DNA from: an uncultured Paracoccaceae bacterium
GTDB lineage: Bacteria; Pseudomonadota; Alphaproteobacteria; Rhodobacterales; Rhodobacteraceae
Direction: 5' to 3'
DNA length: 64,000 nucleotides
Assembly: GCA_947501355.1 (NCBI GenBank)
Contig: CANMVA010000001.1
Location: 1,310,001-1,374,000 of the forward strand
Shown: positions 19,448-33,290 of the stretch, in pieces
Numbering within the stretch: the first letter of the stretch is position 1
Layout of the letters: each line of letters begins with the position of its first letter
The notes under the pieces: generated by a model
Told to the model about the DNA's origin: nothing
Database searches by the model: none
What the model saw: only the letters and a program-made list of their open reading frames with translations
Program-made: the position numbers and the translations under genes

Positions 19448-20716
19448 ATGGTCGTTCCGTTTCACGTTACCGAGATGCTGAAACGCGTCCGCGCGCGGTT
19501 TTTCGAACAGGGGAGCGAGACGCGCATGCTGCCCAAGGACGACGATTTCACGACGCTGCGCCCCGTCCGCTCCGCGTCTGAAACCTCAATCAACCGCTAT
19601 TGGTCCCGCCTGATGGACGGTCCCGCGTCCGAGGCCGACAAAGCCGCCATTGCTGATGCAGAGACGGTTTCGCATGCGAACGCCTATTCCGCGAACATCG
19701 AAAACATGATCGGCACCGTCAAAATCCCCGTCGGCATCGCAGGCCCCCTGCGCATCAACGGGCTTTATGCCGACGGCGATTACCACATCCCCATGGCCAC
19801 GTCCGAAGCCGCCCTCGTCGCCTCCTACGCCCGCGGCGCTTACGTGGCGACCAAAGCAGGCGGCATCTCCACCGCCGTCCTTTACGAAGGCGTCCTACGC
19901 ACCCCCGCATTCACCTTCGACACCCTGCTGGAAGCGGGCATGTTCATCGACTGGGTCGTCGCCAACACCGACCTGCTGAAACAAGCGGCTGAGGCCACGA
20001 CAAACCACGGCAAGCTCACCTCGCTTGAGCCGGTCATCGACAACAACGTCGCCTTCCTGCTCTGCCGCTACACCACCGGCGACGCCGCAGGGCAAAACAT
20101 GGTCACAATCGCCACCAACGCGCTGTGTGAGACCATCGCCGAACACTGCCCCGTCCCCATCAAGCGCTGGTACGTCGAAGGCAACTTCTCCGGCGACAAG
20201 AAAGCCTCCTCCCTCGGCACGATCACGGGGCGGGGGCGCAAGGTTTCCGCCGCCGTCACGCTGCCTGACGCGCTGATCGAAAAGGCGCTCCACACCACCA
20301 CGGACGAAATGCTGGACTACGCCCGCGTCGCCAATCTCGGTGCGCTTCTGTCGGGCCAACTCGGCGCCCAAGCCCACTATGCCAACGGCCTCGCCGCCTT
20401 CTACATCGCCACCGGCCAAGACGCCGCTTGCGTCGCTGAATCGGCCGTCGGCTTCACCCGGATGGAGCGGCGCGACGGCGGCCTTTTCTGCTCCGTCACC
20501 ATGCCCAATATCCTTGTTGGCTCCGTCGGCGGCGGCACGTCGCTCCCGTCCCAAACCGCAGGCCTCAACATCCTCGGCCTGAAAGGCGCAGGCCATGGTG
20601 CCGCCCTTGCCGAGGTCACAGCTGCCCTCTGCCTGTGCGGAGAAATCTCCATCGTCGCCGCCATGGCCGCGGGCCATTTCACCCGCGCGCATGACAGCTT
20701 GGCCCGCCAACGATGA
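19448..20716 (+). CDS. Hydroxymethylglutaryl-CoA reductase family protein (class I-like)
   Basis: ENMIGTVKIPVGIAGPLRING, SGDKKASSLGTITGRGRKV, GSVGGGTSLPSQ, GAGHGAALAEVTAALCLCGEISIVAAMAAGHFTRAH. Confidence 0.92.
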   Translation: MVVPFHVTEMLKRVRARFFEQGSETRMLPKDDDFTTLRPVRSASETSINRYWSRLMDGPASEADKAAIADAETVSHANAYSANIENMIGTVKIPVGIAGPLRINGLYADGDYHIPMATSEAALVASYARGAYVATKAGGISTAVLYEGVLRTPAFTFDTLLEAGMFIDWVVANTDLLKQAAEATTNHGKLTSLEPVIDNNVAFLLCRYTTGDAAGQNMVTIATNALCETIAEHCPVPIKRWYVEGNFSGDKKASSLGTITGRGRKVSAAVTLPDALIEKALHTTTDEMLDYARVANLGALLSGQLGAQAHYANGLAAFYIATGQDAACVAESAVGFTRMERRDGGLFCSVTMPNILVGSVGGGTSLPSQTAGLNILGLKGAGHGAALAEVTAALCLCGEISIVAAMAAGHFTRAHDSLARQR

Positions 20717-21609
20717 GCCTCGCAAAAACACTCTGGATCTACCAGTCCGAGCGTTTCCCGCTTGCCAAAACCGTGCCTTTGCTCACGGTCTTTTCCGCCG
20801 CCTCGATCAACGTCTCCGCCTTCCTCGCAGGCCGCGATCTGCCCGGCCCCACAGCCTACCTGACAGGCTTCGCCTTAGCTCTGATCCTTTTCTTCCAAAT
20901 GCGCGTCGCGGATGAGGTCAAAGACGCCGAAGACGACGACAAGTACCGCCCCGAACGCCCGATCCCGCGCGGTTTGGTTTCGCTGCGAACCATCGTTTTA
21001 TGCGGCCTCGCCACGATCCCCATCGCTGCGCTCATCGCACTCCCCGCAAACGTCCTGACCTTGCTCCTGCTCACATGGGCCTGGCTCGCCGCGATGACCT
21101 TCGAGTTCGGCGTCCCTGAATGGCTCAAAGCGCGCCCCGTCCTCTACCTGCTCAGCCACATGGCGATCATGCCGCTCATCGACCTGTTGCTCACCGGCAT
21201 CGAATGGCGCCCCGGCGGCGGCCCCGCGACCGCCCTCTGGCTCTTCCTCGCCCTCTCTTTCGTCAACGGAGTTGTCCTCGAACTCGGCCGCAAACTTTGG
21301 GCGCCGGAAAGCGAGCGGGAAGGGGTCGAAACCTACTCCAAACTCTGGGGCCCCAAACGCGCCGCAACCGTCTGGGCAAGCTTCATCCTCATCGCCTACG
21401 CCCTCCTTCTCGGTGTCGGCTACGCGCTGGGCCTGCTCCTCCCCATGGCCTTCATCGGGGGAGCCGCCGCCGCGATCACGCTTTACACGGCGGTTTCGTA
21501 CGCGAAACGCCCCACCGTCAAAGCCGAGAAACGGGCCGACACGATGGCGGGCCTCTGGGTACTGATCTGCTACGGCGCCGCAGGCTTTCTTCCACTGGTA
21601 CTGACATGA
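20713..21609 (+). CDS. UbiA-family prenyltransferase-like membrane protein
   Basis: 298 aa, multiple hydrophobic segments; MRVADEVKDAEDDDKYRPERPIPRGLVS Asp-rich motif; overlaps upstream stop (ATGA). Confidence 0.85.
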   Translation: MSLAKTLWIYQSERFPLAKTVPLLTVFSAASINVSAFLAGRDLPGPTAYLTGFALALILFFQMRVADEVKDAEDDDKYRPERPIPRGLVSLRTIVLCGLATIPIAALIALPANVLTLLLLTWAWLAAMTFEFGVPEWLKARPVLYLLSHMAIMPLIDLLLTGIEWRPGGGPATALWLFLALSFVNGVVLELGRKLWAPESEREGVETYSKLWGPKRAATVWASFILIAYALLLGVGYALGLLLPMAFIGGAAAAITLYTAVSYAKRPTVKAEKRADTMAGLWVLICYGAAGFLPLVLT

Positions 21610-24026
21610 TCCTGACCGCCGTCCAAGCCACCGATCCCGCCACCGCAGGCGGCAAAGGCGCCTCCCTCGCAGCGCTCACCAAAGCTGGCTTCCACGTCCC
21701 ATCCTTCTGCGTGCTAGAGGCCTCAGCCTTCTCCGGCGACCCCGCTAATCCGACCCCAAAACGCGGCCTGAAAACCGCGCTCACAAAAGCCGCCACGGCC
21801 CTCGGCCCTGGCCCCTACGCCGTTCGCTCCTCCGCCCGCGCCGAGGACGGGGCCGAACACTCCCATGCAGGCCAGTTCGACACCGTCCTGAACGTCCCCA
21901 AATCCGGCCTTCTGGACGCCGCCGCCCAAGTCTGGTCCTCCGGTTTCGCTGCGACTGTGACCACCTACCGCGACCTCAAAACCGGCGACGTGGCAGAGCC
22001 GCCTGCCATCGTCATCCAGCAAATGATCCCCGCCGAGGCTGCAGGCGTCGCCTTCTCCGCCGACCCTGTCACCGGCCTGCGCGATCATGTCGTGATCTCG
22101 GCCATCAAAGGGCTGGGCGAGGCGCTGGTGAGTGGCGAAGAAGACGGCGAAGACTGGCTTCTCGACGCTGCCGCCACACCTCTCACCGCACCCGAAACGC
22201 CAGAGGTGTTAACCATCGAACAAGCGCACGAAATCGCCGCTCTCGCGCGCCAGGCAGAGGCCGCTTTCGGTGCGCCCCAAGACATCGAATGGGCCATCGC
22301 CGACGGCACGCTCCATATGCTGCAGTCCCGCCCGATCACCACTGATCTCAAGGCCCCCGCACATCCTGACACCAACCTCGTCATCCTCGACAATTCCAAC
22401 ATCGTCGAAAGCTATCCCGGCCTTGTCAGCCCCCTGACTTACAGTTTTGCAACTTACGTCTACGCCCGCGTCTACCGCGCTTTCGTCCGTCTATTGGGCG
22501 TGTCCGAGACGCAAATCGCCACCAACGCCGCCGTCTTCGACAACATGCTCGCCCGCCTTGATGGCCGCGTTTATTACAACCTCGGCAACTGGTATCGCGC
22601 CCTTGCTTTGCTGCCCGGGTTCACCCTGAACCGCGCCTTCATGGAAACCATGATGGGCGTCGATGAACCTCTGCCAGAGGAACTCACCAACGCCATCGCG
22701 CCCCCCGACTTAGAAGGCTGGGCCAAATGGCGCGATTACGGACGGGTCGCCCGCGTCGGAGGCGGCCTGATCTGGCAAGCCCTTCGCCTCCCACACACCC
22801 GCGCGCGTTTCTACGCACGCCTCAACACGGCGCTCTCCCGAGGCGACGCGCACAAGACAGCAAACCTCACCGAGCTCGCGTCCGAATACCGCGCGATTGA
22901 AAGCGAATTGCTCGACCAATGGGACGCCCCTCTGGTCAATGATTTCCTCTGCATGATCGGCTTCGGTCTGTCGCGCAATCTGCTTGAGAAATGGGCTGGT
23001 CCGAAGGGTTTGAGCTTCCATAACGACGTCATGATCGGGCAGGGGGACATCGTCTCCGCCGAGCCCGCTCAACGCATCGCCAAAATCGGCGCGATGGTCG
23101 CAGCCAAAGGCGAAACCGACGCGGAATGCGCAGCGAAACAGCACCCGGAAATCTCCGCGGAGATCGACAGTTACCTCGCCAAGTTCGGCGATCGCTGCAC
23201 GCAGGAACTTAAACTGGAGTCGATCCCCCTGTCCGACGACCCCGCCCAGCTTTACGCCGCCATCAGCGCTCAAGCGGCGCGCCCTGTCGCGGCTCACGAG
23301 CATGCCGATCCCGACTGGTCCGCGCTGATCTCAAACCCCGTCAAACGCACCGTCGCCAAAGCGGTCACCAACTGGGCCAAAGCTCGCGTCCGCGACCGTG
23401 AAAACCTGCGCTTTGAGCGGACGCGCATCTTCGGTCATGCTCGCCGGATTTTCCTTGCGATGGGCCGCGAGTTAACCGCGTTAGGCAAGCTAAGCGATCC
23501 CCGCGACGTCTTCTTTTTGACCGTCGATGAGGTGCTGGGGGCCATTGAAGGATCAGGGTTACCACAAGACCTCAGCGCCTTGGTTTCGCTGCGAAAAGCC
23601 GAAGAGGTCTCCTCCGCCAGCCGCCCTGATCCAGAGGAACGCCTAATGATCCGCGGGGCCGCAATCACCGCGCCCGTCGCCACCGCCGCGCCGCCCCCGC
23701 CAACGGGCGATCTGCAACACGCCACCGGCTGTTCGGCGGGCGTGGTCACGGCGAAGGCCCGTGTGATCCTTGATCCGCGCACGGAAAGCTTGACGCCGGG
23801 CGAAATCCTGGTCGCGCGCAACACCGATCCGGGTTGGATTGCGGTCTTCTCCAACGCCTCCGCCATTGTCGTCGAACGCGGCTCGCTGCTGTCGCATTCA
23901 GCCATTGTCGCGCGCGAATTGGGCATCCCCTGCGTCGTAGGCTTGAAAGGGGCGACGAAGTGGGTAACTTCCGGCGAAGCCATTGAAGTGAATGGAGAAA
24001 CCGGCACCGTGAGGAAGCTGAAATGA
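21606..24026 (+). CDS. PEP synthase-like/PEP-utilising phosphotransferase (ATP-grasp plus swivelling His domain)
   Basis: GGKGASLAALTKAGFHVP, AVRSSARAEDGAEHSHAGQFDT, IEWAIADGTLHMLQSRPIT, C-terminal RGSLLSHSAIVARELGIPCVVG. Confidence 0.9.
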   Translation: MILTAVQATDPATAGGKGASLAALTKAGFHVPSFCVLEASAFSGDPANPTPKRGLKTALTKAATALGPGPYAVRSSARAEDGAEHSHAGQFDTVLNVPKSGLLDAAAQVWSSGFAATVTTYRDLKTGDVAEPPAIVIQQMIPAEAAGVAFSADPVTGLRDHVVISAIKGLGEALVSGEEDGEDWLLDAAATPLTAPETPEVLTIEQAHEIAALARQAEAAFGAPQDIEWAIADGTLHMLQSRPITTDLKAPAHPDTNLVILDNSNIVESYPGLVSPLTYSFATYVYARVYRAFVRLLGVSETQIATNAAVFDNMLARLDGRVYYNLGNWYRALALLPGFTLNRAFMETMMGVDEPLPEELTNAIAPPDLEGWAKWRDYGRVARVGGGLIWQALRLPHTRARFYARLNTALSRGDAHKTANLTELASEYRAIESELLDQWDAPLVNDFLCMIGFGLSRNLLEKWAGPKGLSFHNDVMIGQGDIVSAEPAQRIAKIGAMVAAKGETDAECAAKQHPEISAEIDSYLAKFGDRCTQELKLESIPLSDDPAQLYAAISAQAARPVAAHEHADPDWSALISNPVKRTVAKAVTNWAKARVRDRENLRFERTRIFGHARRIFLAMGRELTALGKLSDPRDVFFLTVDEVLGAIEGSGLPQDLSALVSLRKAEEVSSASRPDPEERLMIRGAAITAPVATAAPPPPTGDLQHATGCSAGVVTAKARVILDPRTESLTPGEILVARNTDPGWIAVFSNASAIVVERGSLLSHSAIVARELGIPCVVGLKGATKWVTSGEAIEVNGETGTVRKLK

Positions 24027-25123
24027 GTCAAGCCGACATCGCCAAACGCGCTCAGTTCGACATCATCCGCTACGCCCAGCTATGGGAGGATGCGGACGTG
24101 CTAACCAAGGCGATGGGCGACGTTGCAGGGGGCACTTTGGTGTCCATCTGCTCTGCTGGCGACAATGCACTAAGCCTGCTGACGCTGGACCCTGCCAAGG
24201 TCGTCGTGCTGGACCTGTCGCCGGCGCAAATCGCCTGTCTCAAGCTGCGGATCGGCGCGCTTCAGACGCTCCATCATAATGAATTTCTGGCGCTGATGGG
24301 GGCGCGGCCAGCCAAAAATCGAGCGGCCCTTTTGGATCGGGCCCTTGTCCCGCTCGATGTCGAAACGCAGGCGTTTTGGGCCGATAAAGTTGCGGATGTG
24401 CAAGCCTATGGGGCGGGTGGTGTCGGCAAGTTCGAGCGGTATTTCAGGCTGTTTCGTCAGGTGGTGCTGCCGCTGGCCCATAATCGCACAACGGTAGATG
24501 AGATATTTGTCTCGAAGCCGAAGGAGGCGCGTCAGGATTTCCTCGAAAACCGTTTTGAGACATGGCGTTGGAACACGCTTTTGAAGCTCTTTTTCTCGCG
24601 CTTCATGATGGGTCGGATGGGCCGCGACAAAGCGTTTTTCGACCATGTGGACGGCTCCGTTTCGGACCATGTGGCGCGCCGTATCCGCCATGCAGCGATT
24701 GATTTGGACCCTGTGGATAACCCTTACCTACATTGGATTTTGAAGGGGGGGCACAGCGATGCGCTGCCCATGCCTTGGCGTGAAGAACACTACCAGACGA
24801 TCCAGGATCGGCTGGACAGGCTCGATATCCGTTTGGGCGCGTTGGAGGCGTTTGTCGAAAGCGGCGAAAAGGCGGATGGCTATAATCTGTCAGACATCTT
24901 TGAATACATGTCCCCCGAAATTGCATCGCAGGTGTATGAGAGCCTCTTGAAGGCGTCCAACCCCGGGGCGCGGCTCGTCTATTGGAACATGATGGCTCCG
25001 CGGCGGGTGCCGGAAACGCTCTCAAACAAGGTTAAAACGCTTTCATCTCTTGAAAACGAATTGAAGGCGCAGGACAAGGCATTCTTCTACTCGGACTTCG
25101 TCATTGAAGAGGTCTTGGGGTGA
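24023..25123 (+). CDS. DUF3419 family protein (BtaA-like 3-amino-3-carboxypropyl transferase relative)
   Basis: IRYAQLWEDADVLTKAM, LVSICSAGDNALSLLTLDPAKVVVLDLSPAQIACLKLRI (SAM-binding-like). Confidence 0.85.
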   Translation: MSQADIAKRAQFDIIRYAQLWEDADVLTKAMGDVAGGTLVSICSAGDNALSLLTLDPAKVVVLDLSPAQIACLKLRIGALQTLHHNEFLALMGARPAKNRAALLDRALVPLDVETQAFWADKVADVQAYGAGGVGKFERYFRLFRQVVLPLAHNRTTVDEIFVSKPKEARQDFLENRFETWRWNTLLKLFFSRFMMGRMGRDKAFFDHVDGSVSDHVARRIRHAAIDLDPVDNPYLHWILKGGHSDALPMPWREEHYQTIQDRLDRLDIRLGALEAFVESGEKADGYNLSDIFEYMSPEIASQVYESLLKASNPGARLVYWNMMAPRRVPETLSNKVKTLSSLENELKAQDKAFFYSDFVIEEVLG

Positions 25124-26400
25124 GTTTGGGGCTGCAAATCGGACTTGCTCTGGCCTCGGTCGGCATCCTGATAGGATTGATCGCTGCGGTCAGGGTCGTA
25201 GCGCAAAGGCAAGGCTGGTCGGCCGAGCTTCAACGCAAGTTGGTGCATATCGGAACGGGGCTCTACGCGCTCGTGCTTCCCTGGCTTTTTGCCGAGGATT
25301 GGCCGATCTATTTGCTCCTTGGGTTGGCGCTGATCGTGATGACCGGATTGCGCTTTGCCAAAGGGGGGCTGGGCGGAACACTGCACGGCGTAGAGCGCAA
25401 CAGCTACGGAGACTACCTGCTGGCCGTCGCCATCGGCGCGGTCCTGCTTTTGTCAGAGCGGGATATGCTGCTTTACAGCTTGCCGTTGGCCGTGCTGGCG
25501 CTGTCTGACGCTGCGGCAGCGCTTGCCGGATCGACCTATGGAAAACGCTTTTATGCCGTTGAAGATGGACGAAAGTCCTTCGAGGGAAGCGCTATCTTCT
25601 TTCTCGTGACGCTTGTCATTGCGATGAGTGTTTTGATCCTGACGCAAGCGCAAACAGGGCCCGAGACGCTTCTTTTGGCGCTGTTGGTCGCAGTGTTCGG
25701 CACTCAGTTTGAAGCGGATAGTTGGCGCGGATTTGATAATCTTTTCCTGCCGTTAGGTTTGTTGATTATCTTGGCGGTGCATCGTGACAGCCCTGTTGAA
25801 ACCCTACTCGCTTTGGCACTTGTCTACCTTGCGGCGCTCGCGATGGTGCCGTTGATTTCAGGCGCACTTGGGGTCTCAAAGCATGTCACGCGGGTCTATC
25901 TGGTGGCGTTTTTCCTGATCCTGTCGGTCACCGAATGGAGCAACGCGGTGCTGCCCGCTTGTGTCCTCGCGGCGCATTTGATGATCCGGCGGATCGCGCC
26001 CAGCGAGGATCCGTTTCCAGAGCTGGATGTGGTCGCCGGATTGGCTTTGATCAGCTTTGGATGGTTGGCTTTGGGCTTTGCAATGGGTCCGAATGCATTG
26101 GGCTTTTACGCGATGACCTGCGCGGGGTTGGCAGCGGCGTTGGTCGCTTTGGGAACACCTCTTTGGGGGGCTGTCGCTGGTGTTTTCCTGGTCGGTTTCT
26201 GCGCGGTCTTTGTGCCTTTGAGCGGCGAGGCTGTCGGAGCATTTCTGGTTCCGCTCAGCGCCGTTTCTGTCGCGATCATGGTGGCCATATCCGCGCTTCG
26301 TCCGACGCTGTTTGCCCGGCTTCGGGTGCTGAAACTTGCGCTATTGGCGCTGGCCGTTCCGCTGGGGGCGTATGGGGTTCAATTCGGAGGGGGCGGATGA
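25120..26400 (+). CDS. Phytol/dolichol (polyprenol) kinase-like membrane protein
   Basis: ELQRKLVHIGTGLYAL, LALSDAAAALAGSTYGKRFYAVEDGRKSFEGSAIFF; many TM segments; GTG start overlaps upstream TGA. Confidence 0.82.
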   Translation: MSLGLQIGLALASVGILIGLIAAVRVVAQRQGWSAELQRKLVHIGTGLYALVLPWLFAEDWPIYLLLGLALIVMTGLRFAKGGLGGTLHGVERNSYGDYLLAVAIGAVLLLSERDMLLYSLPLAVLALSDAAAALAGSTYGKRFYAVEDGRKSFEGSAIFFLVTLVIAMSVLILTQAQTGPETLLLALLVAVFGTQFEADSWRGFDNLFLPLGLLIILAVHRDSPVETLLALALVYLAALAMVPLISGALGVSKHVTRVYLVAFFLILSVTEWSNAVLPACVLAAHLMIRRIAPSEDPFPELDVVAGLALISFGWLALGFAMGPNALGFYAMTCAGLAAALVALGTPLWGAVAGVFLVGFCAVFVPLSGEAVGAFLVPLSAVSVAIMVAISALRPTLFARLRVLKLALLALAVPLGAYGVQFGGGG

Positions 26401-27236
26401 CGGAAGAAACGTTAACATCCGGTAAGACATCTTTAACGATTTACCGGGATGCGCCGGTTTGGAGTGGGCGCACCGCTGCGTTGGGAAAGTTCAAATGCGC
26501 GGACGTCGCGGCGGGTGCCGATATGCTGCTTTCCGCTTGCGACAGGTTAAAATCGGAAGGCTTTCAAAGCATCATCGGGCCGATGGATGGCTCCACTTGG
26601 CACGCCTATCGTTTGGTTTTGGAAAGCGACGGATCGGCTCCGTTCTTGATGGAGCCGCAGTCGAAACCCCACGACTTCGCGGCGTTCGAGGCGGGTGGCT
26701 TCGAGGTAATTGAGCGATACTTTTCCGCTCGCGTTGCGATTGAAAGCCAAGCGCATGATATGCCAGAGCCGACGGACGCCTTGAGCGTCGAGACCTGGGA
26801 TGGCACTGATCCGGAAGGGTTTTTTCGGGATGTGCATGCGCTGTCCCTCAAGGCGTTTGCGGGAAATGTGCTCTATAAGCCAATCTCTGAAGCCGATTTT
26901 CTGGCGATGTATTTGCCTTATGTGCCGATGCTTGTGCCGGACTTGATCCTTTTTGCACGCGGCGCACAGAACGAGTTGGCGGGGTTTTTGTTTGGCCTGC
27001 CGAATTATGCGGAGGGGCGGACGCCATCGTCGGTGATCTTGAAAACCTACGCCAGCCTGCAGAAAGGGGCGGGCGGAATGTTGGCCCAGCAGTTTCACGC
27101 GACGGCCCATCGCCTTGGGTTTTCCCATGCAATTCATGCGCTTATCCATGAAGACAACCTGTCGGCGACGCGGTCGCGGCAGGAAGGCGCGGGCGTGATC
27201 CGGCGCTACGGCCTGATGGGGCGACGCCTTGGCTGA
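26397..27236 (+). CDS. GNAT-fold-like N-acyltransferase (uncharacterised)
   Basis: 279 aa; SEGFQSIIGPMDGSTWHAYRLVLESDG...FLMEPQSKPHDFAAFEAGGFEVIERYFSARV; ATG overlaps TGA. Confidence 0.65.
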   Translation: MTEETLTSGKTSLTIYRDAPVWSGRTAALGKFKCADVAAGADMLLSACDRLKSEGFQSIIGPMDGSTWHAYRLVLESDGSAPFLMEPQSKPHDFAAFEAGGFEVIERYFSARVAIESQAHDMPEPTDALSVETWDGTDPEGFFRDVHALSLKAFAGNVLYKPISEADFLAMYLPYVPMLVPDLILFARGAQNELAGFLFGLPNYAEGRTPSSVILKTYASLQKGAGGMLAQQFHATAHRLGFSHAIHALIHEDNLSATRSRQEGAGVIRRYGLMGRRLG

Positions 27237-28614
27237 TTTGGTTAACGCCTTTCGGGACGCGGTGGCGGTGCGCAGGGATGAGCCGGCGCTGATCGAAGGC
27301 GACGGGCGGGTCGTGTCCTTTGCAGGCCTCTTGGCGCGGGCGGAGAGGTTTGCAGCGGATTTGCAGCGGCGCGGTGTGCAAAAAGGAGACCGCGCGTTGA
27401 TTGCAATGCCGGTTGGTGCCGATCTCTACGCAGCCCTCGCGGGCCTGTGGATGGTCGGCGCGGTAGCGGTCTTTCCAGAGCCTGCTCTGGGATTGAAAGG
27501 CTTGCGCCATGCCGTGCACGTGGCCCGGCCAAAGCTGTTGGTCGCGACGGGGGCTTACCGTTTTTTACACTTATTGCCAGAGCTTTGGCGGGCGAGGGGG
27601 GTGCGATCCGGCCGTTCAGGCGTCCCTGACTCCGTTGCGCTGGGTGCAGACGATCCCGCGTTGATGTCGTTCACGTCGGGCTCGACCGGCGCGCCGAAAT
27701 CTATCGTCCGCAGCCATGGATTTTTGATGGCACAGCGGGCCGCGGTGGCCCCGGTGTTGGAGACCGCCGATGGGCGTGATCTGGTGGCCTTTCCTGTCTT
27801 CGTGCTGGTGGGATTGGTCGCTGGACGGTGTTCGATCCTGCCGAACTGGAAATTGTCGCGGCAAGAGGACGTGACAGGCGCGGATTTGGTTAACTGGGTT
27901 AACCTTTCCGGGGCGACGCGTCTGTTATTGCCGCCCGCGCTGTGCGAGCGACTGGTCGCGGTTGGCGTGCCTGATGGGGTCACGGACGTGTTCACAGGAG
28001 GCGGGCCGGTCTTTCCGGATGTGATGCGGAAACTCGCAACACAATGTCGCGTCACTGCGGTTTATGGGTCTACCGAGGCAGAACCCATCGCAGAGATCGC
28101 GGCGAATGAGATTTCACAGGCGGACTGGGCTGCGATGGCTGCGGGGGATGGCTTGCTGGTGGGCGCTCCTGTCTCAGTGGTTGATTTGCGGCTGCAGGAT
28201 GATGAGGTTTGGGTTGCTGGGGCGCATGTGAACGAGGGGTATCTGAACCCTGCGGATGATGCGGCCAACAAGGTTAAGGACGGCGGTCGGATTTGGCACC
28301 GCACGGGCGATGCAGGGCGCTTGGATGCCGCCGGACGGTTATGGTTGCTGGGGCGTCATTCCGCTCGGGTGACATGGCGGGACGGTTGGCTTTACCCGTT
28401 CCAGATCGAAGTTGCGGCGCGACTTTGGGATGGGGTGCGCCGCGCGGCTTTGGTGGAGATTTCGGGTATACCGGTATTGGCGGTTGAGGCCGATAGGCAA
28501 GGGGATTGGCCCGTTCCGGAGGGCTTGGACATTCGGCTTGTCGACGCCATTCCAATGGATGCACGCCATGGCAGCAAGGTGGATTTGGCAGCACTGAAGG
28601 CAAAGTTGGGATGA
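27229..28614 (+). CDS. AMP-dependent synthetase/ligase
   Basis: LMSFTSGSTGAPKSIVRSHG P-loop, VYGSTEAEPIAEI, WHRTGDAGRLDAAGRLWLLGR; probable TTG start overlapping the GNAT gene by 8 nt. Confidence 0.9.
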   Translation: MADLVNAFRDAVAVRRDEPALIEGDGRVVSFAGLLARAERFAADLQRRGVQKGDRALIAMPVGADLYAALAGLWMVGAVAVFPEPALGLKGLRHAVHVARPKLLVATGAYRFLHLLPELWRARGVRSGRSGVPDSVALGADDPALMSFTSGSTGAPKSIVRSHGFLMAQRAAVAPVLETADGRDLVAFPVFVLVGLVAGRCSILPNWKLSRQEDVTGADLVNWVNLSGATRLLLPPALCERLVAVGVPDGVTDVFTGGGPVFPDVMRKLATQCRVTAVYGSTEAEPIAEIAANEISQADWAAMAAGDGLLVGAPVSVVDLRLQDDEVWVAGAHVNEGYLNPADDAANKVKDGGRIWHRTGDAGRLDAAGRLWLLGRHSARVTWRDGWLYPFQIEVAARLWDGVRRAALVEISGIPVLAVEADRQGDWPVPEGLDIRLVDAIPMDARHGSKVDLAALKAKLG

Positions 28615-28660
28615 GTCTTTGGTAAAGGTGAAATGGATATTTCGACCTGATTGAAAGGGT

Positions 28661-29209
28661 TTAGGGGGCAATCCACTGCCCGTTCCAATCGGGGGTGGCG
28701 AAGCGCGCGCGGCGATGCAATTCAGGTCCAAGATGGAGCGTTTCGATCTCAATCACGTGGAGGGTGATGACCGTGAAATCTTCTTGGCTTGGTTTGGAGA
28801 TGTGGTCCTCAGGTTGCGCGATTTCGTGACCGGGGGCGGGCGTGCCACCGTAGACGCGCTGTGCATCCTTGGGGATTTGCACCCATTTTGTTTCTTCCGC
28901 GTGAGAGAGGTTCGCCCTGCAGCGCAGGCGGATCTGCAGCTTGGACTTTGCATCCCAGATATGGAGCAGTGCGTTGGGGTTCTTGGTTAATTCGCCGATC
29001 TTGGCGGAGCGGCGATCGGTGTGAATTTCGAGGGTCTTTGCCTCCGGATCGACAGCGCGCAGGACAACGGTGCGGGCTTCGGGGCCGGTATCTCCGACGG
29101 TGGCGAGGGTTGGATTGCGGGTTGCCGCGCGTCGGTCTTTGGTGCCGCGGGCGAGGCGTTGCCAGACCTGGGCGAGCGTGCTGTCCAGCCTGTGGAACGG
29201 GTCATTCAT
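28661..29209 (-). CDS. Pyridoxamine 5'-phosphate oxidase-family flavin-binding protein
   Basis: 182 aa; ARTVVLRAVDPEAKTLEIHTDRRSAKIGELTKNPNALLHIWD. Confidence 0.85.
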   Translation of the reverse strand: MNDPFHRLDSTLAQVWQRLARGTKDRRAATRNPTLATVGDTGPEARTVVLRAVDPEAKTLEIHTDRRSAKIGELTKNPNALLHIWDAKSKLQIRLRCRANLSHAEETKWVQIPKDAQRVYGGTPAPGHEIAQPEDHISKPSQEDFTVITLHVIEIETLHLGPELHRRARFATPDWNGQWIAP

Positions 29210-30257
29210 AGCCGGTCATCTCCAGATAGCCGACGCCAGCGTGCGAGCCAGTAAAGCGCAGCGGGCCCTCCCAATAGGGAAAAAGCGTGTCCATCCAGCT
29301 TTGCGGATTGGTCGGCTGTGTCGTGATATCAATGCCGCGCGCGGGGAGTTCGACCCGCCATTCCGTGGGGACCTGGCGGCCGGCAACCGCCGTTAAGGTT
29401 AACGGTGTTAAGGTTAATGCGCCGTCGCCGTAAGGCGTGGGGGTACCGTCTGCGTCAATGTAGGTGGCGGATGTGAACACCCCCGTCGCACCGCGCAAGC
29501 CGAAGCCCATGAGTTTTGCCCCATCGTTGAAATGGAGCGAGAACCAGTCCCAGCCGGTTTGATCCGCGGCCAAGGGTTGGGAGGACCATTCACGGTCGAG
29601 CCATGCCTTGCCGGTGACGGGGACCGGGCCATCCGGGAGGGTCAGCTCGCCTGACACCTCATAGAAGGGTTGCGAGTAGTAGTAGCTGGCTTGCCCGGAC
29701 GCGGATTTGACTGAATAGCCGCGGTCGCCCTGAAAGACGAGGGGGCCAGTGGCGGTCAGGTCGAGGGTATAGGCGGCCTCCATCCCGCGGGCGGTTATGG
29801 TTAACGCATCGAGTTGGTCGTCAGTGGCGGCGGTACTGGTCATGGACCAGTCGTCGATCCAGGCCTCGAACGGGTCTGCGACGACACCGGCCTGGCCGAT
29901 GCTGCCGCGTGCGAGGCGTTCGGCGACGAAATGCCGGTCGGGCGTGGTGATGCCCGCGTGGCCCATCCAAAGCTGGGACGTGTCCCAGCCCGCGCTGGAT
30001 TCGGGCGCAAGGGCTGAGCGGAAAAGGGTCCATTGCACGCCGTAGTCGCGGCCGTCTTCCCCTTCGAGAACAGCCGTCAGATACCACCATTCGATGCGGT
30101 AGTCGGGATGGGCGCCGTGGTCGTTAGGGAAGGTTAATTCGGTACCCCGTTGTGGGATCGCAAAGCCTTCAGCATCTGTGCCGAGGCCCGCGAAACCCTG
30201 AGCGAAAAGCGCGGTCGCCCAGAGCCAAAAGAGAAATGCGAGGGCTCTAACGCTCAT
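29202..30257 (-). CDS. Lipocalin-like AttH/CrtC-family protein
   Basis: PNDHGAHPDYRIEWWYLTAVLEGEDGRDYGVQWTLFRSAL and WLDREWSSQPLAADQTGWDWFSLHF. Confidence 0.85.
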   Translation of the reverse strand: MSVRALAFLFWLWATALFAQGFAGLGTDAEGFAIPQRGTELTFPNDHGAHPDYRIEWWYLTAVLEGEDGRDYGVQWTLFRSALAPESSAGWDTSQLWMGHAGITTPDRHFVAERLARGSIGQAGVVADPFEAWIDDWSMTSTAATDDQLDALTITARGMEAAYTLDLTATGPLVFQGDRGYSVKSASGQASYYYSQPFYEVSGELTLPDGPVPVTGKAWLDREWSSQPLAADQTGWDWFSLHFNDGAKLMGFGLRGATGVFTSATYIDADGTPTPYGDGALTLTPLTLTAVAGRQVPTEWRVELPARGIDITTQPTNPQSWMDTLFPYWEGPLRFTGSHAGVGYLEMTGYE

Positions 30258-32637
30258 GGGCGAACACCTTGATGAGATCAGCGGCGGGGCGGGTCGCCAG
30301 ACGTCGGGCTGGCCATGCGGCAGAGAGGGCCGCGGCGATAAGGGCGGCGATAAAGAGGCCGATCCAGTCGCGGGGGAAAAGCGTCATCGGGAGGCGCCAG
30401 CCGAAGGCCTCGACATTGACGATAGCCAGCAAGACCCATGCGAGCGCGAGGCCCACTGGGAGCGCGATCAGGGCGGTGAGCGCCGCGAGGATAACAGCAC
30501 GGAGCAGCTCGAGACGGGCGAGTTTGGCGCGGGTCAAGCCCATCGCCCAGACAGGGGCAAGCTGGGGCAGGCGCATGGTCGATAAGGTTAACAGGCTGGT
30601 CAAAAGGGCAAGAGCCGCGACGCCAAGTGTTAACGCATTCAGGGCGCCTGTGACCGTGAATGTCCGCTCGAACACATCAAGGGAGAAGGCTTTGATGGCG
30701 GCTTGATCGCGGATATTTCGGGCGGGCAGGCCAGCGCTTGTAAGCAGATCTGTGACCTCGTTGACGCGGGCTTCAGGAAGGCGAAGGGCGAAGTTGAGAC
30801 CTTGGACAGGCGCGCCTTGAGCGCGAAGTTGGGCGAGGGACAGGATCGCCTCGCCGCGCGGATTTCCGTAGTCGGAATAGACACCAAGCACGGTAAATTC
30901 TGCGCGTCCGAGGGTGACGGGATCGCCGGGGGCGAGGTTTTCCCGCAGGCTGAGTTGCTCGTTGATGAGCGCGCCTTCGCCTGCAGCAAGCAGGTCCCAG
31001 ACGTCGGGATCGGCGGCAATAAGGGGCCAGTTTTCGCGGTATGTGACGTCGTCGATGATGCCGTAAATCTGGCCGGGCGCGCTTTCGATTGATGCCTCGA
31101 TATAGCGGATTGGCAGGATTGCATCGACCTGACCGTCCAACAGGTTTGCCAGGTCCGCGGCCTCGGTTTCGTCGCGCGCTGTGACATAGAGTTGCGCGGC
31201 TAGTCGCTGGTCGAGCCAGCCGGTGAAGGTCACGCGAAAGGAGCTGACCATCGTGCCGACGCCGATATTTGCGGCCATCGCCAGCAGAAGCGCCATAAGG
31301 GCGAGTGACAGCCCGGGGACCTGTTGACGGGTGTCCGCGAGGGTCCAGTCGGAGAGGGCTGTGCGGCTGAATTTGGAGGCGAGATTGAGAGCGAAATGGA
31401 GGAAAAGCGGGAGCGTGAGGGCGGCCCCGACCAGCAGGCAACCGAGGAGGATAAAGCCGGTCGTGAGGCCAGAGCCGTAGATTGCGAGGAGGGTGGCGAG
31501 GGCGATTAAACCAGCCCCGCCAAGGGCTTGGCGCTTGAGCGACTTGAGTGATGCGATGGCCCATGCGCGGGGTTGCGCAGGCGCAAGGATCGGCAGATGC
31601 GCTGTCCGCCACAGGCTTTGCGCGCCCGCGACTGCTGTGCCCAGAAGGGCGATGGCGAGGCCAGACAGCCACCACGCGGGGTTGAGCGTCAGCGCGCCAG
31701 AGACCTGGGCGCCGTAGAGGCCGCGCAGGGTCGCGGCGACATCCGGCAGCAGCGCTGCGGCGACCAAATAGCCAAGCGCCACACCCAACGTGCCTGCGAT
31801 CAGGGCGAGGGCGAAAAGCTCGGTTGCCAGAAGCCCGAGCAGTGTCGATTTGCGCAAGCCCAGGGCGCGTAACGTGCGAAACAGGGGGCGGCGTTGCTCG
31901 AACGCGAGGCCGATGGCGGCATGGACGATGAAGAGGCCAACGCCGAAAGACAGCAGGCCAAAAGCGGTCAGATTCAGGTGGAAGCTGTCGGTGAGCCGGG
32001 CGATGTCATTGCCCTCTTCCGGCGCGACGAGCAGCAGATCGGGGGCCACATCCGAGAGAGGTGGCAGGTTGATCGGTTGCTCGGGCGCGAGGATCAACCG
32101 CGCGAAGCTGTCGGTCTGCAGCAAATCGGCGGCGGTGCTGAGATCGGCGATGATAATGCCGGGGGTCAACGTCTCGGTGGTGCGCACGGGGGGCAGCGTT
32201 GAGGGGATTTGCGCGGCGGTATCGGGATGAGCAAAAAACAGGCCATTGCGCACGAAACTTTGCAGGTCACCATCGCCCGACAGATCAACGGGCGCGCTTT
32301 GGGGCGGCGTCGTCAGCGGGTCAATTCCGATCAGGCGCACGCGGCTGCCGTTAAGGTTAATGAAGCCGTCCATAACGGGGGAAACCAGCCAGCCCGCGCG
32401 CCGGATCGCGATGTAGTCGGCCAGCGGAATCGTTCCCGTGCGCGGCTCCAGCCGTTGGAGCTCGTCCTGGCCAAGGATGCCTGCCGCGCGGTCATAGCTT
32501 GCGCGCGCCTCTGCATTGATCGCTTGCACGCCGGACCAGAGCGCGGTGGCAAGCGCAAGGCCGAGCAAAAGGCTGACCAGTTGGATCGGATGTTTGCGCC
32601 AATGCGAGATCAGGGCGCTGAACGCAGCGCGCTTCAT
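30247..32637 (-). CDS. FtsX-like ABC transporter permease (Att/Lol-type)
   Basis: 796 aa with two sets of hydrophobic segments; adjacent ATPase and AttH-like protein. Confidence 0.87.
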   Translation of the reverse strand: MKRAAFSALISHWRKHPIQLVSLLLGLALATALWSGVQAINAEARASYDRAAGILGQDELQRLEPRTGTIPLADYIAIRRAGWLVSPVMDGFINLNGSRVRLIGIDPLTTPPQSAPVDLSGDGDLQSFVRNGLFFAHPDTAAQIPSTLPPVRTTETLTPGIIIADLSTAADLLQTDSFARLILAPEQPINLPPLSDVAPDLLLVAPEEGNDIARLTDSFHLNLTAFGLLSFGVGLFIVHAAIGLAFEQRRPLFRTLRALGLRKSTLLGLLATELFALALIAGTLGVALGYLVAAALLPDVAATLRGLYGAQVSGALTLNPAWWLSGLAIALLGTAVAGAQSLWRTAHLPILAPAQPRAWAIASLKSLKRQALGGAGLIALATLLAIYGSGLTTGFILLGCLLVGAALTLPLFLHFALNLASKFSRTALSDWTLADTRQQVPGLSLALMALLLAMAANIGVGTMVSSFRVTFTGWLDQRLAAQLYVTARDETEAADLANLLDGQVDAILPIRYIEASIESAPGQIYGIIDDVTYRENWPLIAADPDVWDLLAAGEGALINEQLSLRENLAPGDPVTLGRAEFTVLGVYSDYGNPRGEAILSLAQLRAQGAPVQGLNFALRLPEARVNEVTDLLTSAGLPARNIRDQAAIKAFSLDVFERTFTVTGALNALTLGVAALALLTSLLTLSTMRLPQLAPVWAMGLTRAKLARLELLRAVILAALTALIALPVGLALAWVLLAIVNVEAFGWRLPMTLFPRDWIGLFIAALIAAALSAAWPARRLATRPAADLIKVFAHER

Positions 32638-33290
32638 GGGCTGACCTGACCGTGAGACAGATGCAGGCGGCGATCGAGTTTTTTGGCCTGGCGCAGGGAA
32701 TGGGTGACCATCAGCAGCGCAGCACCCGTGTCACGAACCCCGCTCATCAGCAGATCAAGGACGGTGTCAGAGCTGTCTTCATCAAGGTTACCGGTGGGCT
32801 CATCCGCCAGCACCAGTTTCGGGCGTGCCGCCAGGGTCCGCGCAATGGCGACGCGCTGTTGCTGACCGCCGGACAGCTGTTCTGGGTAGCGCGTCAGATG
32901 ATCGGCAAGTCCCAGATGGTGCGCCAATTCCGAGCACCACTCACCATCAGCGCGTCCTGCCAGACGGGCGTGAAAAGCGATATTAGCGGCGACGTCCAGA
33001 GAGGGGATCAGGTTGAATTGCTGGAAGATTACCCCAATCTCACCCCGACGCAGATCGGCGCGGGCGGCATCATCCATCTGCGTCAGATCGTGGTTTTGAA
33101 ACCGGATGGCCCCGCTATCGGGCGCGTCCAGACCGGCCACTAAGGTTAACAAGGTGCTCTTGCCCGACCCACTTTCACCAGTCAGCGCAAGGCTCTTACC
33201 CGCCTCAAGTGACAGGGACACGTCGCGCAAAACGGTCTGCACAGCGTCCTCGGACGGATAAGTTTTGGTTAGATTTTCGACCTGTAACAC
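32634..33290 (-). CDS. ABC transporter ATP-binding protein (LolD/AttE-like)
   Basis: GESGSGKSTLL, LSGGQQQRVAIARTL, LVLADEPTGNLD. Confidence 0.93.
   Translation of the reverse strand: MLQVENLTKTYPSEDAVQTVLRDVSLSLEAGKSLALTGESGSGKSTLLTLVAGLDAPDSGAIRFQNHDLTQMDDAARADLRRGEIGVIFQQFNLIPSLDVAANIAFHARLAGRADGEWCSELAHHLGLADHLTRYPEQLSGGQQQRVAIARTLAARPKLVLADEPTGNLDEDSSDTVLDLLMSGVRDTGAALLMVTHSLRQAKKLDRRLHLSHGQVSP

Follow-up and report, generated by a model that had tools for sequence, protein, structure and literature searches.

A 64,000-nucleotide stretch of DNA from an uncultured Paracoccaceae bacterium (assembly GCA_947501355.1, contig CANMVA010000001.1, positions 1,310,001 to 1,374,000; hereafter the window) carries at positions 19448-28614 an operon of seven genes, each of which overlaps the next (Table 1). 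We read it as a pathway for a specialised isoprenoid-type amphiphile that would use a homologue of 3-hydroxy-3-methylglutaryl-CoA (HMG-CoA) reductase (HMGR) for something other than making mevalonate, and we regard the case for this general class of pathway as about evenly balanced. The seven overlapping genes described in the first-pass annotation were confirmed, including the open reading frames, the ATGA overlaps at 20713, 21606, 24023 and 26397, the GTGA overlap at 25120 and the 8-nt overlap of genes 6 and 7 at 27229, where gene 7 begins with TTG. Its HMGR, UbiA, DUF3419 and AMP-ligase family calls were similarly upheld by Pfam matches; the same search returned no match for genes 5 and 6. 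A scan for promoters and terminators gave nothing above chance, and a defence-system reading was rejected, as none of the seven proteins (0/7) had a PADLOC match.

Table 1. The seven genes of the operon, in window coordinates, with the evidence for each family assignment
Gene	Position	Strand	Predicted product	Evidence
1	19448-20716	+	class I HMGR-family reductase, 422 aa	Pfam PF00368 HMG-CoA_red, E 4e-107
2	20713-21609	+	UbiA-superfamily membrane prenyltransferase, 298 aa	Pfam PF01040, E 9e-16
3	21606-24026	+	ATP-grasp and phosphohistidine dikinase-like protein, 806 aa	Pfam PPDK_N and PEP-utilizers
4	24023-25123	+	DUF3419 (BtaA-related) predicted S-adenosylmethionine (SAM) aminocarboxypropyl transferase, 366 aa	Pfam PF11899, E 1e-56
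5	25120-26400	+	polytopic membrane protein with prenol/dolichol-kinase-like motifs, 426 aa	motifs and AlphaFold
6	26397-27236	+	tandem-GNAT acyltransferase, 279 aa	AlphaFold and Foldseek
7	27229-28614	+	AMP-forming acyl ligase, 461 aa, TTG start	Pfam PF00501 AMP-binding, E 3e-38

The seven genes are inherited together as a single unit, and this holds far outside the source strain. When gene 4 alone was used to query 84,980 species genomes, 137 relatives were found, and 80 loci of these were kept. In every sufficiently long locus the other operon genes lay on the same strand, and wherever all seven were full length (73 loci) they stood in identical order within less than 9.5 kb, with four-base overlaps at most junctions. 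As these loci had been collected through gene 4 only, the presence of all seven genes in order in 73/73 places their linkage far beyond chance. The hosts include Rhodobacterales (Ruegeria, Roseovarius, Yoonia, Sulfitobacter and Paracoccus), Hyphomicrobiales (Bosea, Devosia and Rhizobium), Parvularculaceae, Halomonas and Granulosicoccaceae; among them is Roseovarius nubinhibens ISM, which is amenable to laboratory work. A plasmid-borne copy was seen once (L136, NZ_CP121116.1, Roseinatronobacter sp. S2), where the operon crosses the start of the circular record.

The association also holds in the reverse direction. An HMGR of any kind was found in 19 of 298 Rhodobacteraceae genomes; the operon was present in all 16 genomes in which this HMGR was at least 66% identical (in one of them the contig ends after gene 4, so that genes 1-4 are visible) and absent from the three (3/19) with a divergent HMGR. 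No additional copy of the operon-type HMGR came from 385 genomes spread across the Alphaproteobacteria. Furthermore, pairwise protein distances among the seven genes correlate at 0.79-0.92. This is the phylogenomic co-occurrence that the first-pass annotation had named as a check on its proposal. The operon is thus a patchily distributed biosynthetic unit that has probably been moved horizontally: the patchy hosts, the correlated distances and the reverse test together indicate that all seven are transferred as one block. One of the 16 genomes (G013; L132, 7297-8558) has its operon HMGR in two overlapping frames within an otherwise intact operon, through a frameshift or a sequencing error.

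Gene 1 had first been annotated as HMGR-family, with the remark that HMGR makes mevalonate, and the family assignment stands. Its nearest solved chain is 6hr7 (E 2.5e-80), which we take to be an archaeal HMGR, and it shares with class I HMG-CoA reductases (PF00368; 6hr7, 1dq8) the fold, the catalytic Glu/Lys/Asp/His set and the pocket equivalents of Arg590, Asp690, Lys692 and Asn755 (human numbering). The equivalents of Glu559, Asp690, Lys691, Lys692, Asn755, Asp767 and His866, which include the catalytic set (Glu559, Lys691, Asp767 and His866), are kept in 75/75 cluster copies. Gene 1 differs from the class in that Ser684 is replaced by Glu (Glu244) and Lys735 by Ala (Ala295), again in 75/75 copies, whereas both Ser and Lys are retained in 7/7 mevalonate-type alphaproteobacterial HMGRs. 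Both residues are listed in the HMG-binding pocket (PMC7503714), and in a bacterial HMGR structure a basic residue forms a salt bridge with the HMG carboxyl (PMC13370337). Since two HMG-pocket residues have been replaced in every copy, mevalonate is an unlikely product of gene 1. With less positive charge in the pocket overall, the substrate might carry a neutral or cationic group in place of the HMG carboxylate.

The genomic context is consistent with this. The operon holds no mevalonate kinase, decarboxylase or other further mevalonate-pathway gene, in agreement with the first-pass annotation; HMG-CoA synthase (PF08540) was found in 0/12 operon genomes, on which ground a mevalonate operon was rejected, and ispG, of the methylerythritol phosphate (MEP) pathway, in 12/12. 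Taken together, the altered pocket, the missing synthase and the universal IspG make it most likely that gene 1 reduces a non-HMG acyl-CoA to an alcohol. In a tree, the operon HMGR has as its sister clade an orphan HMGR from Vibrio and Photobacterium, which occurs without the other operon genes and has Asp and Asn/Thr at positions 684/735. A laterally transferred HMGR of Vibrio has been the subject of older work. Four such orphans (L183, 13893-15155; L184; L186; L187), annotated or recognisable as hydroxymethylglutaryl-CoA reductase genes, are acidic at 684 and do not have Lys735; judged by these residues, they too may not be HMG-CoA reductases. Further orphan HMGR-family genes with altered pockets were seen in Alphaproteobacteria and Alteromonas (L139, L140, L146, L147, L129 and L185), with Pro/Asn plus Arg590 to Ser, or Ser/Ser or Ala/Ser, at 684/735. 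The other operon genes are absent from further HMGR loci of relatives (L129, L130, L131, L146 and L147), except for a weak AMP-ligase match in L147.

Genes 1, 3, 4 and 7 keep the residues needed for their predicted chemistry, and a tentative route can be drawn for the operon. Gene 7, whose nearest NCBIfam models are PRK09274 and OleC-type and which retains its TEA motif in 72/74 copies, TGD in 73/74 and the C-terminal Lys in 72/74, would convert a carboxylic acid to an acyl-AMP or acyl-CoA; gene 1, consuming two NADPH, would turn a non-HMG acyl-CoA into a primary alcohol. One or more alcohols could be phosphorylated by gene 5, as a CTP-dependent prenol-kinase-like enzyme, and by gene 3, as an ATP dikinase acting through His764. 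Gene 2 would join a prenyl group to the product, using allylic diphosphate derived from the host MEP pathway (the host's own polyprenyl diphosphate synthases are present and could supply it). Gene 4 may place a 3-amino-3-carboxypropyl group from SAM onto a hydroxyl, gene 6 may acylate an amine and, in some lineages, a cytochrome P450 and a sulfotransferase might oxidise and sulfate the product. This exact order of steps deserves much less confidence than the general class of pathway; it is a guess, as is the nature of the acid. More tentatively still than the general class, and with the balance tilted against it, we propose that the product is an amino-isoprenoid lipid of a class new to bacteria, in which an alcohol derived from a non-HMG acyl-CoA would be phosphorylated, prenylated by an atypical UbiA, capped with aminocarboxypropyl from SAM and variably oxidised or sulfated. 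What survives of the pathway first proposed for this DNA is the conserved unit, the BtaA-like core, the dikinase His and the kinase motifs; the mevalonate role and the PEP synthase do not.

The two kinase-like proteins deserve separate comment. Gene 3 had been called PEP-synthase-like with a swivelling His. Its ATP-grasp residues and swivelling His are present, with the catalytic His764 in SHSAIVARE and the His motif kept in 72/74 copies, but Pfam finds PPDK_N and PEP-utilizers only. The missing C-terminal PEP/pyruvate domain speaks against a PEP synthase; by its domains gene 3 is a dikinase that lacks the pyruvate part, nearer to the RPH/PigC type. Its nearest curated models (NCBIfam) are PRK06241, RedH, PigC and RPH, dikinases that share the ATP-grasp, the swivelling His, a length of about 800-880 aa and the lack of a PEP/pyruvate barrel, and its nearest full-length solved chains are 5fbs/5hv2, presumably rifampin phosphotransferases. 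It is set apart from RPH, PigC and RedH by a distinct middle region. Beyond the operon family, its closest homologues on plasmids share about 27-33% identity with gene 3. Among the closest of these plasmid relatives, the Streptomyces copies (L137 and L138) are clustered with AfsA-like and isoprenylcysteine-methyltransferase-like genes, neighbourhoods that point to no particular substrate for gene 3.

Gene 5, first described as phytol/dolichol-kinase-like, carries the motifs RKxxH (R39, K40, H43), SD..A..G..YG, KSxEGS and E..DN, in columns that vary little or not at all across 74 copies (R39, K40 and H43 in 74/74), and its AlphaFold model (predicted local distance difference test, pLDDT, 86) is almost entirely helical. 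It resembles the plant phytol/prenol kinases VTE5 and FolK, and PfPolK, in the RKxxH clamp, the membrane helices and the KSxEGS and E..DN motifs, but differs from these enzymes in an extra, long C-terminal membrane half, and no statistical match in sequence or structure came from Pfam, NCBIfam, the PDB fold search or hhalign against CdsA. In the model of a characterised prenol kinase, an Arg-Lys-His triad forms a charged clamp (PMC10849223). These motifs raise the possibility that the operon salvages prenol or phytol in the manner of plant VTE5-VTE6, with chlorophyll side-chain acids or alcohols activated by gene 7, reduced by gene 1, phosphorylated twice (by genes 5 and 3) and transferred by gene 2. 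A linear chain could be built from the single reductase, the pair of kinase-like enzymes and the UbiA, and the succession of a prenol kinase and a prenyl-phosphate kinase is known in plants (PMC10849223). Salvage is nevertheless unlikely: it leaves over the DUF3419 and GNAT proteins, and the operon also occurs in Halomonas and soil bacteria. The kinase assignment of gene 5 is, moreover, a motif-level one, and gene 3 is not recognisable as a VTE6-type enzyme.

The DUF3419 protein, gene 4, bears out its annotation as a BtaA-type relative. With 19 BtaA-type comparators it has 38 conserved positions in common, the SAM core among them, and with BtaA, which acts in betaine lipid synthesis, it shares the SAM-binding core and the YxQxWED, SxGxN and DL motifs. 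Identity to the BtaA-type proteins is only about 24-29% over the full length, however, and 53 positions are specific to the subgroup. By these positions gene 4 is its own subfamily of DUF3419, and since the 53 are conserved differently, its acceptor is likely to differ from that of BtaA. The neighbouring gene 6 was first called GNAT-like, which can now be sharpened: its AlphaFold model (pLDDT 91.8) is that of a tandem GNAT, with two GNAT folds per chain, and has as its best Foldseek match the tandem GNAT 7q3a (E 8.9e-12); 2wpw and 1ozp were matched too, and MshD and MprF-type folds are among the matches. The shared SAM core and the lipid-like context would fit a variant betaine- or homoserine-lipid pathway as well, in which gene 4 would act on diacylglycerol as BtaA does, and the remaining genes would alter the homoserine head group. 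We consider this improbable, given the low identity and the differently conserved positions. Neither BtaB nor any other methyltransferase is encoded among the seven genes, unlike several BtaA-type comparators, which have a methyltransferase downstream, and the obligate HMGR, the UbiA and the two kinase-like enzymes would be left unaccounted for.

It is quite doubtful, too, that gene 1 encodes a genuine HMG-CoA reductase whose mevalonate serves as a free building block or enters a partial mevalonate route that feeds UbiA. The class I fold and full catalytic set are what such an enzyme would have, and alphaproteobacteria can obtain HMG-CoA from leucine catabolism. Against this stand the invariant Glu/Ala pair in the pocket, the distribution of HMG-CoA synthase and IspG, and the lack of mevalonate kinase and decarboxylase genes, in which the operon is unlike a mevalonate-type operon. 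Rhodobacteraceae normally use the MEP pathway; one mevalonate-type operon was seen in this family (L131, 5100-10410), comprising an HMGR distant from that of the operon, an HMG-CoA synthase-like gene and three GHMP-kinase-like genes. The least credible alternative is a prenyl-ether lipid pathway that resembles archaeal digeranylgeranylglyceryl phosphate (DGGGP) synthesis and adds aminocarboxypropyl as the head group, for which the best PDB profile matches of gene 2 (DGGGP synthase and chlorophyll synthase) and the presumably archaeal 6hr7 speak, but in which the UbiA match is weak (6m31, E 5e-4) and limited to the region of the first Asp motif, and glycerol-1-phosphate enzymes are missing from the operon.

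Several points weigh against our preferred reading, a pathway to an isoprenoid-type amphiphile. Gene 2 resembles the UbiA superfamily in its intact first Asp motif (R64..D67..D71..D75..RPxRPxP, with D67, D71 and D75 in 74/74 copies) and the RPxRPxPxG sequence, but its second Asp-rich motif is replaced by E190-x-G-R-K..E201-x-x-G-V-x-x-Y in 74/74, a departure from DGGGP synthase and chlorophyll synthase alike. Gene 5 is prenol-kinase-like by its motifs, and at that level only: it has no match in Pfam or NCBIfam, nothing significant was returned by fold searches of the PDB and of viral proteins (Foldseek), and its hhalign probability against CdsA was 0.3%. Similarly, the pocket changes in gene 1 predict a new substrate and do not prove one, and the product and the enzyme activities are inferred from sequence. 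Finally, two kinase-like enzymes, two acyl-activating or acyl-transferring enzymes and a reductase allow several orders of steps.

Each of these enzyme families is known, and a search of open-access papers in PubMed Central found no description of their combination. In that literature no function has been published for this seven-gene unit, although it is conserved so strictly and occurs in the well-studied marine genera Ruegeria, Roseovarius, Sulfitobacter and Yoonia as well as in Halomonas, Bosea and Devosia. If our reading is correct, the operon would yield a new class of lipid or metabolite. Furthermore, for a set of proteobacterial genes annotated as HMG-CoA reductase, including the sister genes of Vibrio and Photobacterium, the annotation may be wrong and the true substrate a different one.

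The surroundings of the operon vary. A P450 and a sulfotransferase flank it in 17 of the 80 loci (divergent upstream in 16, downstream in one), weaker P450 homologues adjoin it in seven further loci, and apart from these two the flanking genes show no generally shared family; in the window itself neither was seen beside the operon. In mycobacteria, an adjacent P450 and sulfotransferase (CYP128 and Stf3, the sulfomenaquinone locus) hydroxylate and sulfate the prenylated lipid menaquinone-9 (PMC7404182). By analogy with that pair, the neighbours suggest a lipophilic product with optional tailoring, with the difference that the two genes are accessory here and the core pathways are unrelated.

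Within the window, base composition changes inside the operon. Over positions 19448-33000 GC skew switches sharply from negative to positive, read left to right, at about 24 kb, and GC skew at third codon positions (GC3 skew) runs from -0.46 to -0.39 in genes 1-3 versus +0.13 to +0.28 in genes 4-7. Separate origins for the two halves, as this break might imply, were rejected, since the protein distances of the halves correlate well. Among the loci listed, the break is common only to Cognatishimia L023, and the mean of 73 loci does not have it. Cumulative skew shows a local minimum here of the kind seen at origins.

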